DNA from: Hyphomonadaceae bacterium
Lineage (GTDB): Bacteria > Pseudomonadota > Alphaproteobacteria > Caulobacterales > Aquidulcibacteraceae
Direction: 5' to 3'
Assembly: GCA_019753105.1 (NCBI GenBank)
Contig: JAIELJ010000003.1
Location: 186,001 to 250,000 of the forward strand
DNA length: 64,000 nt
Position numbers and translations under genes: made by a program. This document shows, piece after piece, positions 2,445-61,235 of the stretch (position 1 is its first letter; every line of letters begins with the position of its first letter). The notes beneath the pieces were generated by a model. It saw only the letters and a program-made list of their open reading frames with translations, was not told the DNA's origin and searched no databases.

Positions 2445-2969
2445 TTAGGCCCGTCGCGCGAAGTCCAGCAGCAGCGAACCGTTGGCGCCGTCCGGGATGC
2501 GGAGTTGCAGCGCATTGCCACTGGCGGTGAAATCCGGCGCGACAGTGCCGATGCGGCCGCACGTGTAGCTCAGGCTGGGTGAGGGCGTATCCGTGAAGGT
2601 CGCAGTCCAGCGATCAACTTCGCCACTGCCCGGCGCGCCGGCCCATTGAAAGACAACGCCGCCCGCCTGTTCGCTCACCTCAAGCGCTACAGCGCGTGCG
2701 TCTTGCCAACCCGTGGCCTGGCCGACGCGCACGGCGCGCGTGAGATCGTAGATGCCTGGCGTGATCGGCCCGCCCGGGAGATCGCTCGCGACTGCGGCAA
2801 CCGCTAGCGCTTCTTCAACGCGAACCATGCGCGCATTATCCGGCGTGATCGTATTGCAGGCTTGAACCTGCGGCCCGGGCGTGTCCGGCGCTTCCGCGTC
2901 TCGCTGCGCTGGCGGCGTACACGCGATCAGCAGAGCGGCGAGGGCGGCAGAGAAGAGCAAGCGGCGCAT
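2445..2969 (-). CDS. Putative lipoprotein of unknown function
   Basis: A 174-residue protein with an N-terminal export signal ending in a lipobox-like LIAC at about residues 14-17, followed by a Pro-rich linker (TPPAQRDAEAPDTPGP). The rest is a beta-rich domain with Cys38 and a second Cys near residue 137 that could pair. No family was recognised. It lies 67 bases downstream of the DUF4175 gene on the same strand and may be co-transcribed with it. Confidence 0.6.
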   Translation of the reverse strand: MRRLLFSAALAALLIACTPPAQRDAEAPDTPGPQVQACNTITPDNARMVRVEEALAVAAVASDLPGGPITPGIYDLTRAVRVGQATGWQDARAVALEVSEQAGGVVFQWAGAPGSGEVDRWTATFTDTPSPSLSYTCGRIGTVAPDFTASGNALQLRIPDGANGSLLLDFARRA

Positions 2970-3036
2970 GAAAAGCCTCCGTGGTTCCCGCAGGGCTGGA
3001 GTGTGAATCGTCCGGCGCGGCTGCGCAATGATTGTC

Positions 3037-5559
3037 TCAGCTATCGCCGAAGCGATCCATCAAGCGGCGCAGATATTCGCGCTCAGCTTCTGGGCGGTTG
3101 GGATCCTGCGCGCGCCGGCGGATTTCATCGTAGATTTCGCGCGCGCGCACAGGATCGGTTGTCGTCGGCACGGTTCCTTCGCTGTCGGAGCCGCCATTGA
3201 TCGAGCGGCCGAGCGGATCGCGGCCCGCTTCGCCAGCTTCGTTGCCCTGTTCGCCTTCGCGTTCACGATCGCGCATTTCGGCTGAGAGCGCTTCGGCGCC
3301 TTCGCGCAGATTTTCGAGCGCCGCATCCTGCGCTGCTTCGGCGGCGTCGAGATCGCCGCGGCGCAACGCATCCTCAGCGCGGCGCATGGCTTCGCCAGCG
3401 GCGTCGAGGTCTTCGCTGGGCGCTGCGCCCGCATCATCAGCCATACGCTGCGCTTCGGCTAAGCCCTGCCGGATCGCTGCTTGGCGGTCACCAAGTTGGC
3501 CGCCGCTCTGGCCGCCTTGCCCGCTTTGGCTTTGTTGTGTCTCGTCACGCAGCGCGCGCTGTTCGCCCATCGCTTCGCTGAGCTCGTCCATGCTTTGCTG
3601 GAGCGCCTGATCGCCCTCGCCACTGCCGCCTTCGCCGCCTTCAGCGAGATTGACCTGCATATTGGCGAGGATGCCGGCCAGCAGTTCGAGCAATTGCTGC
3701 GCTTCGGCATTGCGGCCTTCACGGGAGAGCCGCTCGACCTCGCGCAGCAGCTCTTCGATGTCCTGGCCGCTGATCTGCGCTTGCTCTTCGGTGTCTTCCA
3801 TATTGGCGCGTTCGCCATTGCGCAGCGCTTCGTTGACGAGCGCCTCCATGTAATTCTCGGTGGCGCGGCGGAGCGCTTCTAAAAGCTGATTGATGCGCTC
3901 TTGCGGTGCGCCCGCAGCCAATGCTTCGGCCAACTGCCGCTGGGCTTCGTCGAGCGCACGACGCGCATCGGCGGCTCCGCCATATTCCGCACGCAGCGCC
4001 GTGCGCCAGAGTGTATCGGCCGCCAAGTCCGTATCGCCAAGCTCATTGGCGACATCGAGTTCAGCCCTTGCCGTGCGGAAGCCGAGATAAACCGCAAGAT
4101 CGCGGAAGTAGCCGTCCTCGGGCATCATGGTCAGCGCATCGATCAGGCGCGCACCGTGGCGGATGCCTTCAGGAGCGCGCGCGAGGTTCGGGCGGCGATC
4201 GTAATTGCGCACTTCGATACGCTCGCCTTCAACAAGGAGACTTGGGTCCTCCATCGTTTCTTCGCGCATCGGCCTTGCGCGCTGATAGGCGCGCCGTTCG
4301 GCGAGGATGTGACGGCGAATTTCGATCGCCGCTTGCGCCAGCGGCTGTAGGAAAACGCGCTCCGGCAATGTCAGCCGCAGCGGATCGCTCACGCCCTCTT
4401 GGCCTAAAGCGTCGAACGCCACGACATAGGCCTCGACCTCCATCCCTGCATAAGGGTGTGCTGCAACATCGACCTCGACATCCTCCTCAGCTTCACGCGG
4501 ATCGCCCGCGGGAAACTCTAGCGGAGTGTCGACAGGATCAGCTTGCAACAGACCTTCAGGCGGATTGAGCGGCCGCACGCGCAAGGCGAGGCGGCGAACG
4601 CCGAAATCGTCGCTGACGCGATAGCTCAACGCCAAGTGCTCTTCCGGCAGCACATCAATAGGCGCGGAAAAGGCTGCGGATGGGCGCACGTCACGCGCTG
4701 GCGCAATGCGCCAAAAGGCGCGGGTGTGGAAGCGCACGATCTTGAGCTGTCCGGCGCCCGGCAATTCGAGCTCTGCTTGCCAAGCGCCGTCGGCAGCGCG
4801 CGCGAAGCGCACTTCGCGGCGGCCGCTCAAGCCCTCGAACACAAGAAGCGGCGCGCCAGCCGGTCCGGTAACACGCACCATTGCCGTTACTGACGGCGGC
4901 GTCTCGACGCGTTGGCCGATGACATCGCTCAGCGAAACCGGCGCGGCGTGCGTGTACTCAGCCGGTGTAAGCCAAGCCTCTACCGCGAGCTCCTGATCGC
5001 CGAGCAGCGGGCCGGGGTCGGGAAAGAACGCACGCGCCAAGCGATCCGGCGCCTGCGCGCCCGCATAGAGCACGCCCAACAGCAACGCGATCGCCAACAC
5101 AAATCGGAGCTTGAAGGGGTCGTAGTCATCGAGCCGCGCCCGCGCTGGGCCAACGCGCACACGTTGCGCGCGCTCCACGGCGCGCTCGCGCTCCCGTGCC
5201 CAGAGCGCCATCGAGAACGGATCGTACTTGGTCGGTTGATCGCGCAGCGCGTCGAAGGCGCCGGCGTCCATTTTTGAATCGGCCGCGAGCCGTGCACGCG
5301 CTTCCGCTTCTGTCGGTGCCCGCCATGCGAGGTAAGCGCGCCAACCAAGCCAGGCGAACACGCCCAGCGCGCCCAAGCTCGCCAAGCTCTGCGCCAACAT
5401 GGGCAGGGTTTCCAGCGCGCCCGCCAGCGCCAGCAGCGCCCAGACGCCCACAACGACAGCCAACGCAAAGCCCGCCCGCAACGCGCGTTCGCGCGCAATG
5501 CGGCTGCGGGCGCGAGCCGTCTCGCGCGCGAGCAGATCGAGGGCGTCCTGGTGCTTCAT
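3037..5559 (-). CDS. DUF4175 (TIGR02302-type) large membrane-anchored protein
   Basis: An 840-residue protein. Seen: two N-terminal membrane segments at about residues 27-75, a third at about 150-167, a long beta-rich periplasmic region to about residue 400, then a helical, Gln/Glu/Asp-rich C-terminal half with coiled-coil character (for example LLREVERLSREGRNAEAQQL) and a Gly/Gln-rich low-complexity stretch. This architecture and length fit the alphaproteobacterial DUF4175 family, which is often found downstream of lysA, as here. No biochemical role is established; an envelope role is plausible from topology and context only. Confidence 0.8.
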   Translation of the reverse strand: MKHQDALDLLARETARARSRIARERALRAGFALAVVVGVWALLALAGALETLPMLAQSLASLGALGVFAWLGWRAYLAWRAPTEAEARARLAADSKMDAGAFDALRDQPTKYDPFSMALWARERERAVERAQRVRVGPARARLDDYDPFKLRFVLAIALLLGVLYAGAQAPDRLARAFFPDPGPLLGDQELAVEAWLTPAEYTHAAPVSLSDVIGQRVETPPSVTAMVRVTGPAGAPLLVFEGLSGRREVRFARAADGAWQAELELPGAGQLKIVRFHTRAFWRIAPARDVRPSAAFSAPIDVLPEEHLALSYRVSDDFGVRRLALRVRPLNPPEGLLQADPVDTPLEFPAGDPREAEEDVEVDVAAHPYAGMEVEAYVVAFDALGQEGVSDPLRLTLPERVFLQPLAQAAIEIRRHILAERRAYQRARPMREETMEDPSLLVEGERIEVRNYDRRPNLARAPEGIRHGARLIDALTMMPEDGYFRDLAVYLGFRTARAELDVANELGDTDLAADTLWRTALRAEYGGAADARRALDEAQRQLAEALAAGAPQERINQLLEALRRATENYMEALVNEALRNGERANMEDTEEQAQISGQDIEELLREVERLSREGRNAEAQQLLELLAGILANMQVNLAEGGEGGSGEGDQALQQSMDELSEAMGEQRALRDETQQSQSGQGGQSGGQLGDRQAAIRQGLAEAQRMADDAGAAPSEDLDAAGEAMRRAEDALRRGDLDAAEAAQDAALENLREGAEALSAEMRDREREGEQGNEAGEAGRDPLGRSINGGSDSEGTVPTTTDPVRAREIYDEIRRRAQDPNRPEAEREYLRRLMDRFGDS

Positions 5560-56639: not shown

Positions 56640-56750
56640 ATGGCTCGGTGGCCCCGTTTTTGACCGCCGGTCAAGCCTGCGGCGGCTGGTCTCGTGGCCG
56701 ATGGGCGCATTCACCGGATACCAACGGGTACGGTTTATACTGCCTCCGAA

Positions 56751-57332
56751 ATGTCGATTCTCCGGATGAATGGGCCAGCCCAGGCCCTTGTGCTTGGGCT
56801 GATGCTGGCGGTTTTGACCGCCTGCGCCACCGCACCAGCGCCCATATCGGGCGGCCTGCGGGGCCGTGCGCCGACGGCGTCGGAGCCGCTGCCGCGCTGG
56901 AGTGGCGGCGAAGAGCCTAGAATCGTGGATGCGCGGGCGCGTCTGCAGTGCGTGCCGTTTGCCCGTCGTGAATCGGGCGTCGAGATCTTTGGCGACGCCA
57001 ATACCTGGTGGGCGCAAGCCGCCGGCCGCTATCCGCGTTCGGGCCGCCCGGCGCCTGGGTCGGTTCTGGTCATGCGCGGCTACAACAATCCGGGCCGCGG
57101 CCATGTCGCTGTGGTGACGAGGGTGGATTCCAACCGTCTCATCCGCGTCGATCATGCCAACTGGCTGAACAATGGCGAGATCAGCGTCGACGTGCCGATC
57201 CTCGACGTCTCGCCGAACAATGATTGGTCGGAAATTCGGGTTTGGCATATCCCCGGCGGGCACTGGGGCGGGCGGATCTATACCGCCCATGGCTTCATTC
57301 ACCCGTTCAGCCTTACAGCATCGCTGAGCTAA
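56751..57332 (+). CDS. CHAP-domain lipoprotein (amidase-like), paralogue 1
   Basis: About 193 residues: signal with lipobox LTAC near residue 24, short linker, then a CHAP domain. Seen: LQCVPFARRESG with the catalytic Cys, ANTWWAQAAGRYP, PGSVLVMRGY, GHVAVVTRVDSNRLIRVDHANW with the catalytic His, and a WSEIRVWH motif. CHAP enzymes cut peptidoglycan peptides. Closely similar to the next gene in the core, but lipid-anchored. An ATG five codons further in is possible. Confidence 0.87.
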   Translation: MSILRMNGPAQALVLGLMLAVLTACATAPAPISGGLRGRAPTASEPLPRWSGGEEPRIVDARARLQCVPFARRESGVEIFGDANTWWAQAAGRYPRSGRPAPGSVLVMRGYNNPGRGHVAVVTRVDSNRLIRVDHANWLNNGEISVDVPILDVSPNNDWSEIRVWHIPGGHWGGRIYTAHGFIHPFSLTASLS

Positions 57333-57547
57333 AGTTCCCAGCGTTAAGACTTGTGGCGTAGTCCTCGAAGACTAGCGTTAACTAGTGTTACTCGAAGACC
57401 AGCAACATCTTGTGACTTACGATTCTCTTTACCATAGAGAACCCGCACCTTTCCTGAAGTTCAGCTGGCGAATTAAGTGTTCTTTTACTCCGCTGGCGGC
57501 TTTGTGTGTCCCAGTTTGGGGCAATAAGCTCGCCTGGGCATCAGGGC

Positions 57548-58222
57548 ATGGTCGATTCCCGCGCGCTCCTCCTCGCCGTTGCTGCGGCTGCAGGCCTTTC
57601 GGGTCTGCCGTCGGAAGCAGAGGCGCTGACGCCATTGTCGATGGATCTTGCCGTCGACCCGTCAGTCACCGAGGGGCCTTCAGAACACGCCACTATGGCG
57701 CCCGCCGATTTCGAGCGGTTGCCGGATGAGGCGTACGAGCCGACGGCTCGTGTGACGAACTGGCGTTCGCGCTTGCAGTGCGTGCCGTTTGCGCGCCGCG
57801 AGTCTGGCGTCGAAATTTATGGCAACGCCAATACGTGGTGGCAGCAGGCACGCGACCGCTACGAAACCTCCGCTGATCCTGATGAAGGCTCAGTCATGGT
57901 TCTGCGTGGCTACAACACGAACACACGCGGCCACGTTGCTGTCGTGCGCGAAGTCGTGTCCGAGCGCTTGATCATCGTCGATCACTCGAATTGGCTGAAC
58001 ACTGGCGAGATTACGCGCGACGTGCCGATCCGCGATGTGTCGCCGGCTGGCGACTGGAGCCAGGTTCAGGTTTGGAATGTGCCCGGTCGTCATTGGGGCG
58101 GGCGCACCTACCAAGTGCAGGGCTTCATTCAGAACATCCTGACGGAAGCTGAGCAAGCGCGCCAAGCTGAGGCCGCGGCGCGCGCGCAGGTGGCGTCGGG
58201 CGAACCGGTAGCCATCGGCTAA
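57548..58222 (+). CDS. Secreted CHAP-domain protein (amidase-like), paralogue 2
   Basis: About 224 residues with a cleavable signal peptide (LLLAVAAAAGLSGLPSEAEA), no lipobox. CHAP core: LQCVPFARRESGVEIYGNA, EGSVMVLRGYNTNTRGHVAVV, VDHSNWLNTGE, WNVPGRHWGG. A C-terminal Ala-rich helix (LTEAEQARQAEAAARAQVA) is absent from paralogue 1. It differs from its neighbour in targeting: probably soluble or periplasmic instead of membrane-bound. The pair is a tandem duplication with about 215 bases between. Confidence 0.86.
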   Translation: MVDSRALLLAVAAAAGLSGLPSEAEALTPLSMDLAVDPSVTEGPSEHATMAPADFERLPDEAYEPTARVTNWRSRLQCVPFARRESGVEIYGNANTWWQQARDRYETSADPDEGSVMVLRGYNTNTRGHVAVVREVVSERLIIVDHSNWLNTGEITRDVPIRDVSPAGDWSQVQVWNVPGRHWGGRTYQVQGFIQNILTEAEQARQAEAAARAQVASGEPVAIG

Positions 58223-59004: not shown

Positions 59005-59931
59005 ATGGCGAATGGCGCGGCGGCAGCCGCGGGCGCTGGCGCGCCTGCACAGAAGAAACTGAAGCTGAAGCGTAAGCAGCAGGGCGGCATCCCTCTCTTT
59101 CGCTGGCTCACCCAGAACGTCTTCTGGGAGCTCTTCATCATCGCCTGCATCATCGCGAACGCGGTGATCCTCGGCTACGATGCTCATCATGGCGGAGAGA
59201 GCCCCTACAGCGCGCAGATCGAGCAGTGGAATATGTACTTCCTGTACATCTTCACCGCCGAGCTGATTTTGGAATTCTTGGCGCAAGGCCCGAAACGCTA
59301 TTTCAGCCGTGGCTGGAACTGGTTCGACATGTTCGTCGTCGCCATCAGCTATTTCTCGGTTTCATCGCTGTCGGCGCTGCGTACGCTGCGCGTCATCCGC
59401 ATTTTCCGTCTTATCAGCGCCGTGCCGCAAATGCGCCGCGTCGTCGAGGCGTTGTTCGGCGCGCTGCCTGGCATCATGGCGTCGTTCGCTATCTTGGCTG
59501 TGGTCTTCTACATCGCAGCAGTGATGGGCACGACGCTCTTCCATAACGATCCTGGCTTCCGAGACCTCGGCGCCAGCGCGCTTTCGCTCTTTCAGCTCTC
59601 GCAGTTTGACGGTTGGGGCGAGACGGTCACGCGTCTGCAAGCGCAAAATCCGTATGCGTGGGTGTTCATCCTCGGCTTCACACTCGTTGCGGTCTTTGCC
59701 GTCTTGAACCTCTTCATCGGCGTTATCGTCGAAGCGGTGCAGGCCGCGCCGCAAGAAGAAATCAAGGAAGAACTCGACGAACTCGAGCAGGACGTTGAAG
59801 GCATCGCCGAAGCACAAGAAGACGCCGCTGACGTGCAACGGCGTGTGCTTGAGGAACTACGTGCATTACGTGCTGAGGTCGCGGCGCTGCGCGGCGCTAG
59901 TCCGCCGACGCCACCATCACCGGTGGGCTGA
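59005..59931 (+). CDS. Voltage-gated-type ion channel (NaChBac-like)
   Basis: A 308-residue six-segment channel. S1 about 41-58, S2 78-95, S3 105-118, S4 with Arg126, Arg129, Arg132 and Arg135 at every third position, S5 154-177, pore loop 190-207 and S6 219-245. The pore reads SLFQLSQFDGWGE where bacterial sodium channels have FQxxTLESW: Asp202 replaces the filter Glu and Gly203 the Ser. A C-terminal coiled coil (about 250-295) would hold the tetramer. The ion carried is unknown. The gene end overlaps the convergent fasciclin gene by 35 bases. Confidence 0.88.
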   Translation: MANGAAAAAGAGAPAQKKLKLKRKQQGGIPLFRWLTQNVFWELFIIACIIANAVILGYDAHHGGESPYSAQIEQWNMYFLYIFTAELILEFLAQGPKRYFSRGWNWFDMFVVAISYFSVSSLSALRTLRVIRIFRLISAVPQMRRVVEALFGALPGIMASFAILAVVFYIAAVMGTTLFHNDPGFRDLGASALSLFQLSQFDGWGETVTRLQAQNPYAWVFILGFTLVAVFAVLNLFIGVIVEAVQAAPQEEIKEELDELEQDVEGIAEAQEDAADVQRRVLEELRALRAEVAALRGASPPTPPSPVG

Positions 59932-60460
59932 GCACGCTGTTGATGCCTTGGATCACGCCGTTGCTGGCGTTGATGTCGGGCATGACGACGAGCTGATCGT
60001 ACACGCGCAAACCGTCACGGCCGTCGATCGTGAGGGTATAGCCGTTTGAAGCTTCCTCGCGCGTGACGCCGCCGGCGGTGCTTTCGCTCGTCACGCGCTC
60101 ATCGACGACGTGATAGGCGAGCAACGCCAATAGCTCGTCGCGGTTTTCCGGGGCGAAGAGCCGCGTGCGCTCGCGTTCGCTCATCGAGCGGAATGCTTCG
60201 TCAGTGGGGGCAAAGATCGTGAACGGGCCTTCGCCGCGTAGCGTTTCGGCGTAGCCGGTTTGCTCGACAGCATCGAGAAAGTAGCTGAACTGCCCGGTCG
60301 CCGCGGCAACGTCGATGACATCGCCTTGCGGATCGGGCGTGTTCGTTTCGGTGTCCGAGATCGCGACAACGAAGCGTCCGTCCGTTTGGGCGAATGCGGC
60401 GGGCGTGGCCGTGACAGCGAGCGCCAGCACCAACGCGCGTGTGAAAGAAACTCTGTTCAT
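59897..60460 (-). CDS. Secreted fasciclin-domain protein
   Basis: About 187 residues from ATG 60460, with a signal peptide ending AAFAQ. One fasciclin (FAS1) domain: FSYFLDAVEQTGYAETLRGEGPFTIFAPTDEAF in sections, LLALLAYHVVDERV and the final YTLTIDGRDGLRVYDQLVVMPDINASNGVIQGINSVL region. FAS1 domains mediate adhesion or surface interaction. It converges on the channel gene with overlapping ends. Confidence 0.9.
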   Translation of the reverse strand: MNRVSFTRALVLALAVTATPAAFAQTDGRFVVAISDTETNTPDPQGDVIDVAAATGQFSYFLDAVEQTGYAETLRGEGPFTIFAPTDEAFRSMSERERTRLFAPENRDELLALLAYHVVDERVTSESTAGGVTREEASNGYTLTIDGRDGLRVYDQLVVMPDINASNGVIQGINSVLSPPVMVASAD

Positions 60461-60542
60461 GCGCGGTGAACGCCGAGAATGCCGCGACGGTTTCACACGC
60501 GTGTCACTGGCGCCCGCGCTTACCATCGGCGACAATGCGCGC

Positions 60543-61235
60543 ATGTCCGTCTGGTCCCGCATCGTTGAATTGGCCGCGCGCGCTTTCGATCCGGAGGCCG
60601 ACCCGCCCGAATTTGGTGAAGAATGCGCCCCGCGGCCGAATGACGTCGGGTTCACCGCCGCCGTGATCGGGCTGGCGGCGAAAATGGCTAAAGCGGACGG
60701 CGTCACGACCGAGAGCGAACTGGCTGCCGCCGCTCAAGTCTTCCGCCCGCCGCCCGGCGAGGAGGAGCACTTCCGCCGCGCCTTCATGCTGGCGAACCAG
60801 ACGGTCCTAGGATTTCAGTCCTACGCCAAGCAGATCGGCCGCAAGTATCGCGCGCGGCCCTGCTTGCTGGAGGACGTGCTCGATGGCCTTTTTCACATCG
60901 CGGTCGCCGATGGCGCGCTGACGCAAAGCGAATTGGACTATCTCGCTGACGTGGCTGCGCATTTCGGCTTCTCGGAGATGGAGTTCCGCCGCATCAAGGC
61001 CACCAATCTAGGCCCCGACGCTGACGATCCCTATGCCGTGCTGGGCCTGCTGCCGGGCGCGAGCATGGAAGAGGTGCGCCAGGCGTGGCGGCGTGTGGCG
61101 GCTGAAAACCACCCTGACCGCATGCTCCAGCGCGGCGCGCCGCCGGAATTTGTGGAAATCGCGCGGGACAAAACCGCCGCGATCAACGCCGCCTACGCGA
61201 AAATCCGCGAGGAACTGAGCGTTCCGGCGAAGTAA
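60543..61235 (+). CDS. TerB-DnaJ domain protein (DjlA-like)
   Basis: A 230-residue soluble protein. The N-terminal TerB-like helical domain (about 35-150: VIGLAAKMAKADGVTTESEL, GLFHIAVADGALTQSELDYL) is followed by a C-terminal J domain with DPYAVLGLLPGASMEEVRQAW and the HPD motif in ENHPDRM. Unlike DjlA of enterobacteria it has no membrane anchor. It should stimulate an Hsp70; an Hsp70-like protein occurs at 23273 but there is no proof of a link. Start MSVWSRIVEL fits the domain. Confidence 0.88.
   Translation: MSVWSRIVELAARAFDPEADPPEFGEECAPRPNDVGFTAAVIGLAAKMAKADGVTTESELAAAAQVFRPPPGEEEHFRRAFMLANQTVLGFQSYAKQIGRKYRARPCLLEDVLDGLFHIAVADGALTQSELDYLADVAAHFGFSEMEFRRIKATNLGPDADDPYAVLGLLPGASMEEVRQAWRRVAAENHPDRMLQRGAPPEFVEIARDKTAAINAAYAKIREELSVPAK

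Follow-up and report, generated by a model that had tools for sequence, protein, structure and literature searches.

A natural QFDGW selectivity filter in a protein of the bacterial sodium-channel kind and in its close relatives

The 64,000-nucleotide stretch of DNA analysed here (the window) contains a gene for a single-domain voltage-gated cation channel whose selectivity filter reads QFDGW in place of the TLESW of the canonical Na+-selective bacterial sodium channels (BacNavs). To judge by its letters, the protein does not found a new kind of channel but is a natural variant within the bacterial sodium-channel kind. We propose, at a probability of about 0.55 and by analogy with characterized channels, that it forms a homotetrameric, depolarization-activated member of the BacNav superfamily that would have lost discrimination for Na+ and would pass Ca2+ together with monovalent cations.

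The reading frame begins with ATG, encodes 308 residues and has no internal stop (table 1). Pfam assigns residues 40–248 to a single six-transmembrane Ion_trans domain (PF00520, E 5.4e-46), the arrangement typical of the BacNav superfamily, and the folds of NavAb and NavMs agree. An earlier reading made from the sequence only had described a complete six-segment channel of the NaChBac/NavAb type with four S4 arginines; the intact frame, the Pfam domain and the arginines R126, R129, R132 and R135 bear this out. Aligned with NavAb (the letters of PDB 5vb2), 86 of 255 aligned residues are identical (34%); we take native NavAb numbering to be the printed 5vb2 index minus 18, anchored on E177 and R99. 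A search of PDB sequences matched 150 distinct entries. Among the best 60 of these the single-domain bacterial channels lie at E 2e-42 to 6e-39, and the top ranks are held by human four-domain channels because several of their repeats sum. A search of NCBIfam with the protein returned chance matches alone. The host genome (99.98% complete) carries two further Ion_trans genes, whose filters, TTVGYGD and TTTGYGD, mark them as K+ channel-like, so that the window channel is the only Nav/Cav-type channel of its host. A general notion about BacNavs is that the cations they would admit on depolarization serve pH, motility or signalling.

Table 1. Positions in the window of the channel gene, its structural elements and its conserved neighbours.
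Feature	Position	Strand	Basis or remark
Channel gene, single-domain voltage-gated cation channel	59005..59931	+	308 aa, stop included
Voltage-sensor domain S1–S4, aa 39–138	59119..59418	+	NavAb alignment; helices of predicted model
Counter-charges N52, D59, N76, E86, D108	within aa 39–138	+	NavAb alignment
S4 helix, aa 122–138, with R126, R129, R132, R135	59368..59418	+	NavAb alignment, model
S5 helix, aa 154–178	59464..59538	+	model
P1 pore helix, aa 188–199; Q197 equivalent to NavAb Gln172	59566..59601	+	alignment, model
Selectivity filter QFDGWGE, aa 200–206	59602..59622	+	alignment, homologue census
P2 helix, aa 204–214	59614..59646	+	model
S6 helix, aa 218–247, conserved N235	59656..59745	+	NavAb alignment, model
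C-terminal helix, aa 250–296	59752..59892	+	model, low confidence at aa 250–268 and 296–300
CHAP-domain protein, conserved neighbour	57506..58222	+	Pfam, neighbourhood comparison
Second CHAP-domain gene, related, adjacent	56694–57332		conserved near channel in genus
Fasciclin-domain protein, conserved neighbour	59897..60706	-	convergent; 3' end overlaps that of the channel
TerB-DnaJ protein, conserved neighbour	60315..61235	+	Pfam, neighbourhood comparison

How ordinary is the voltage sensor? In the alignment NavAb R99, R102, R105 and R108 fall on R126, R129, R132 and R135, and the counter-charges N25, E32, N49, E59 and D80 on N52, D59, N76, E86 and D108, with Asp for Glu32; the four arginines are thus accompanied by S2/S3 counter-charges as in other BacNavs. 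Altered gating, which the sequence-only reading had also considered possible, finds no footing in so standard a sensor. The filter tryptophan (W179, here W204) and the S6 asparagine (N211, here N235) are likewise kept. An AlphaFold model built from seven sequences (mean pLDDT 69, pTM 0.41) is relied on for fold and helix ends only; its pLDDT is 85–90 across residues 161–230 and falls to 58 in S4. An earlier model from three sequences (mean pLDDT 52) was set aside. The top Foldseek matches are CavAb, NavMs and NavAb, the best being 5klb (CavAb) at E 3e-12. The model overlays pore-only bacterial structures at 1.3–1.8 Å over 88–95 residues, whole chains at 4 to 14 Å and two pore entries that include the neck at about 10 Å. 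The C-terminal helix presumably contributes to the four-helix coiled coil of a tetramer, as in known BacNavs.

If the sensor is standard, what of the pore? NavAb FQVM-TLES-W-SM aligns with FQLS-QFDG-W-GE (residues 196–206), which entails V173L, M174S, T175Q, L176F, E177D, S178G, S180G and M181E. The earlier account of an altered filter was right in the exchanges of Glu for Asp and Ser for Gly and in holding that the altered residues are ones known to set Na/Ca preference; it overlooked Thr to Gln, Leu to Phe, the acid at Met181 and, in the relatives, an exchange between the equivalents of Gln172 and Gln175. Just after the filter the channel is one residue shorter than NavAb. The aligner sets this gap before the Glu, an exact place that is arbitrary. 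A gap after the Trp fits either side of the acid, to which we assign position 7, that of Met181, after the CavMr numbering in the accessible part of PMC7041947. In the model P1 ends at Ser199 and P2 begins at Trp204, and the Gln-Phe-Asp-Gly loop between them is the counterpart of the Thr-Leu-Glu-Ser of NavAb. A shifted register, with a residue deleted before the Thr and a Phe inserted so that ‘T-L’ and ‘S/T-Q’ are kept, was considered, and plain substitution is preferred. The spacing between the conserved LF[QA] and Trp is the same in the clade as in canonical channels, the aligner opens no gap there, and the helix ends of the model, which leans on the same alignment, make the shift somewhat less probable.

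Across the 26 distinct sequences of the clade F196, L198, Q200, D202, G203, W204 and G205 are identical, F201 is kept in 25, and the residue that precedes the filter is Ser or Thr in 25 (Ala in L022); this near-total invariance compares with 45% invariant positions in the core overall. Apart from that for Trp, the filter codons differ synonymously between relatives. The recurrence of the filter in many distinct homologues, together with these synonymous differences, argues against chance or sequencing error. The gene is under purifying selection, with dN/dS of about 0.11 for the pair L004/L005 and 0.18 for the window channel and L004.

How common is such a filter? The census comprises 201 distinct sequences from 226 matching loci, duplicates merged and four loci on viral contigs included; Alphaproteobacteria are over-represented, since sampling centred on the genome of the window. 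The filters are TLESW (86), TLEGW (27), QFDGW (25), TMDGW (13), TLDGW (10), TFEDW (10) and smaller classes, among them a single QYDGW. Asp-Gly at positions 3 and 4 occurs in 54 of the 201, 26 in the clade of the window and 28 outside it; 26 of the latter have Thr at position 1 and two Ile. Thr1 is kept in 164 and absent from 37. The Thr1-less rows are 26 with Gln and four with Leu in the clade, and elsewhere four with Ile or Val (L197, L202, L218, L219) and three odd ones (L135, L136, L138). An Asp-Gly filter as such is therefore ordinary in the census, and the Gln1 form is confined there to the clade. That Thr1 loss was unique to one clade had been suggested by 139 distinct rows, the aberrant L135, L136 and L138 apart, and was overturned by sixty further loci that included L197 and L202 (IMDGW) and L218 and L219 (IYDDY, VYDDY). 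Where Thr1 is lost and position 3 is acidic, the acid is Asp in every one of the 35 rows, a pairing that rests on about three origins, so few that a sign test cannot reach significance.

Several other filters came to light beside these. In family f109 (L197, L202) the filter Thr was lost separately, outside the clade of the window, to give IMDGWA. In L218 and L219, from class-level genomes of family f9, the Thr is gone and so is the usual Trp (MIYDDYG and MVYDDYG). Within the same order, the neighbouring family f2 (L094–L099, L105, L108 and others) has TMDGW filters, mostly TMDGWRFE; the literature searched yielded no characterized channel with a TMDGW filter. A search of genome contigs with the single protein gave 47 stretches matching a pattern, two of which coded for relatives, and a plasmid search gave 39 records, each below 60% identity. 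Viral contigs gave no match to the single protein and four distant channels to a profile. Contigs filed as viral carry BacNav-like channels with TFEDWTD (L166, L167; the latter at 2926–3759 of a 97 kb IMG/VR contig) or TFDNWSE (L168), possible cases of voltage-gated channels carried by a virus or prophage.

From what did the QFDGW filter arise? The main tree was built from NavAb and 86 of the 139 distinct rows, 87 in all, with filter columns excluded, the root at the midpoint and a bootstrap that was not fully settled (0.983). The sequence-only reading had proposed collecting homologues and building a tree against NaChBac and prokaryotic Ca channels; this stands as far as the 201 homologues and the placing of the FDGW clade against NavAb, in a tree without CavMr, NavPp and NsvBa. 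The window gene falls among NavAb-like alphaproteobacterial channels. Outermost first, the branches are L032 (TLDGWGD), L085 (LFDDWGN), L031 (LFDNWGD), L030 (LFDDWGN) and L029 (LFDDWGA), followed by L028, L027 and L002 (QFDGWG[DE]) and then the rows of the genus, with fork supports, in order, of 97/93, 100/96, 100/89, 100/93, 96/89, 94/41, 100/99, 100/96 and 100/99. The weak fork (94/41) joins L028 to the remaining QFDGW rows, so the case for Gln having arisen once depends on this fork. We conclude from the ordered sequences that the filter was evidently replaced stepwise, from TLDGWG through LFD[D/N]WG to QFDGWG. Filters like that of NavPp (TFEDWT, TLEDWT or TFESW) are borne by five rows that lie behind a long branch beside the TLESW row L073, and the window gene lies apart from them. 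The main tree needs one change for the loss of Thr1 and eight for Asp-Gly. A quicker tree of 197 rows, built with long-branch warnings, needs three for Thr1 loss, 11 for Asp3, nine for Asp-Gly, one for Gln1 and two for Ala172.

How widespread is the gene? Every one of the 24 genus genomes with a completeness of 85% or more has a match (in G049 in two fragments), and the genus as a whole has a strong match in 25 of 30; the other five are 57–83% complete, one of them with a weak match only. At family level a match is found in 46 of 60 genomes. QF/QYDGWG[DE] is found in 23 of the 24 genus genomes whose filter could be read (G049 is not among them), and the remaining genome, G053, has LFDDWGN. In 21 neighbourhoods, one genome counted twice, a homologue of the nearer CHAP gene lies nearby in 18, of TerB-DnaJ in 18, of an amidase in 17 and of fasciclin in 14, counts that denote presence nearby rather than strict adjacency; at two loci both CHAP queries matched one gene. 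The LFDDW channel of G053 sits between the same CHAP and fasciclin/TerB-DnaJ genes (locus L124), so the orthologous locus there carries a different filter state. None of the CHAP, TerB-DnaJ, amidase and fasciclin genes stands beside the channels L031 and L032 (loci L160, L161). Both strands are represented among the neighbours, which offer no hint of function.

What became of Gln172, which lies in P1 three residues before the filter Thr? Of the 23 distinct QF/QYDGW sequences of the genus, 22 have Ala in its place, and all 22 carry Gln at 175; among the 201 homologues Ala172 is never seen without Gln175. Gln stands at both places in four rows (L002, L003, which is the window channel, L027 and L028). 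The window channel is nested among Ala172 rows, and with two changes of Ala172 on the 197-row tree its Gln172 may be a reversal. The Arg185 equivalent, in a register uncertain by one with a gap nearby, is present in L032 and L085 and absent from L031, L030, L029, L028 and the rows beyond. In the accessible part of PMC12919392, NavAb Q172N gave no current (five cells per mutant, one transfection). One possible course, which we put forward tentatively, is that Thr gave way to Leu and then to Gln, Arg185 was lost, and Gln172 was then dropped by the majority of species, its job having moved one helical turn to Gln175, to leave a Ca2+-permeable filter stabilized in a different way. As the gain of Gln175 and the loss of Gln172 are essentially one evolutionary event, a causal link between them is something that we infer. 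The same Ala172, set beside Q172N and the loss of Thr1, could instead betray a degenerate, non-conducting pore in a protein that serves only as voltage sensor or scaffold. We regard this as very improbable, given the invariance of the filter region against that of the core, the low dN/dS and the Gln172 equivalent retained by the window protein itself.

What would such a filter pass? A changed ion preference is plausible by comparison with published channels, cited here from the accessible parts of each source. NsvBa has a TLDSWGSG filter, in which an Asp ring is combined with Gly at position 6, and does not discriminate among Na+, K+ and Ca2+; its D186E mutation alone confers Na+ selectivity, and NaChBac E192D:A195G acquires the non-selectivity of NsvBa (PMC4225499). 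NavAb M181A mutants are termed non-selective, with ‘~10-fold Ca2+ selectivity’, and Asp is found at the Met181 position in CavMr and in artificial Cavs (PMC12919392). For CavMr and NavPp-D4G the main determinant of Ca2+ is glycine at position 4 (PMC7041947), and CatSper2/3/4, which are Ca2+-selective, join a Gly at this ‘beacon’ to an Asp ring (PMC10120453). In the channel proposed here Asp202 from each of the four subunits, its side chain shorter than that of the customary Glu, would help to make a high-field-strength ring, and Gly203, with no side chain above that ring, would widen the mouth. Glu206 (Asp in most relatives) would place an acid, as CavMr and CavAb also do, at the position that in NavAb sorts monovalent from divalent ions, and Gln200, in the place of the filter Thr at the end of P1, may supply some of the hydrogen bonds with which Gln172 supports the filter. 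The tetramer, the opening by voltage, the ion preference and this role of Gln200 are what we infer.

Could it instead be a highly Ca2+-selective native Cav, like CavMr or CatSper, with its Asp ring, Gly4 and acid at position 7? The pattern XXDGWXE/D does resemble CatSper3 TVDGWTD, CatSper4 TQDGWVD and CavMr TLEGWVD (PMC7041947), and channels with a Gly ‘beacon’ are grouped with the Ca2+-selective ones (PMC10120453). We nevertheless think this unlikely. For Ca2+ selectivity CavMr needs Val6 besides Gly4, its Asp7 being dispensable (PMC7041947), and position 6 here is Gly; NsvBa has the Asp ring with Gly6 and is non-selective; and in the tree the gene groups with NavAb-like channels, at a distance from the rows with AnclNav-like filters. 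NavAb S178G (TLEGW) gains permeability to Li+ and none to Ca2+ (PMC12919392), which leaves Ca2+ selectivity in this channel unproven. The S178G result, the Gly at position 6, the dispensable Asp7 of CavMr, the absence of the CavMr L6 loop and the tree position also count against mere Ca2+ permeability.

That S178G result and the NavAb-like ancestry would suit a channel that remains mainly one for Na+ (or Na+/Li+), its letters changed and its monovalent selectivity retained. This we consider improbable in view of NaChBac E192D:A195G and NsvBa D186E, of the replacement of Met181 and of the filter retained in 23 of 24 genus genomes, from which it follows that the change is held by selection, whichever ion is favoured. 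With seven differences between the clade and NavAb within 174–181, single-site results from NavAb may not carry over; among these, L176Q and L176G bring divalent block and L176F none (PMC10349818), and the carbonyls of Thr175 and Leu176 line two ion sites (PMC3320569). On balance we favour a weakly selective, Ca2+-permeable channel, rank a strict calcium channel next and place a sodium channel after both.

Why should this filter matter? In its accessible parts, published work on bacterial filters draws on a small number of TLESW channels, mutated artificially, and on a handful of natural variants (NsvBa, CavMr, NavPp). The literature searched, largely outside subscription journals, contained no description of a QFDGW-type filter, and nothing useful on host taxa with channels or on the conserved filter threonine. 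Here the relatives themselves step from one filter to the next, with at least one intermediate (G053) at the chromosomal locus of the end state, so that one can measure directly in what order changes were tolerated and how each affects Na+/Ca2+ preference. The series bears on how a CatSper-like DGW filter can originate independently, and on the question why Gln172 is needed in NavAb when most channels of the genus dispense with it. If the Gln has indeed been relocated, it is a filter architecture that we found described for no characterized Nav, Cav or CatSper channel.

With NavAb, NavMs and NaChBac the channel shares the single six-transmembrane domain, the four S4 arginines and their counter-charges, the P1–filter–P2 layout and, in the model, a long C-terminal helix of low pLDDT; it differs in QFDGWGE for TLESWSM, the equivalents of Thr175, Leu176, Glu177, Ser178, Met181 and Arg185 all being changed. 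Like CavMr (Meiothermus ruber, AnclNav; TLEGWVD) it has Gly as the fourth filter residue and an acid as the seventh (PMC7041947), but Asp rather than Glu at position 3, no Thr1 and Gly rather than Val at position 6. The disulphide-bearing L6 loop of CavMr (PMC10120453) is absent, the sole Cys being C48 in S1. As to NavPp (Plesiocystis pacifica, AnclNav), the comparison is with rows bearing NavPp-like filters, from which the window gene stands apart. NsvBa (Bacillus alcalophilus) likewise has Asp at the high-field-strength site (Asp202 here) and Gly after the Trp (Gly205), whereas the window channel has Gly rather than Ser at position 4, no Thr1 and no second Gly of the GxG motif. With CatSper, the Ca2+ channel of animal sperm, it shares the DGW core of the CatSper3 and CatSper4 filters (PMC7041947) and a likeness of fold (7eeb_C, Z 14.6, rmsd 7.8 Å over 258 residues), yet identity is 17% and CatSper3 and CatSper4 retain the filter Thr. 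CatSper is a heterotetramer of CatSper1–4, whereas the host has one such gene in its near-complete genome.
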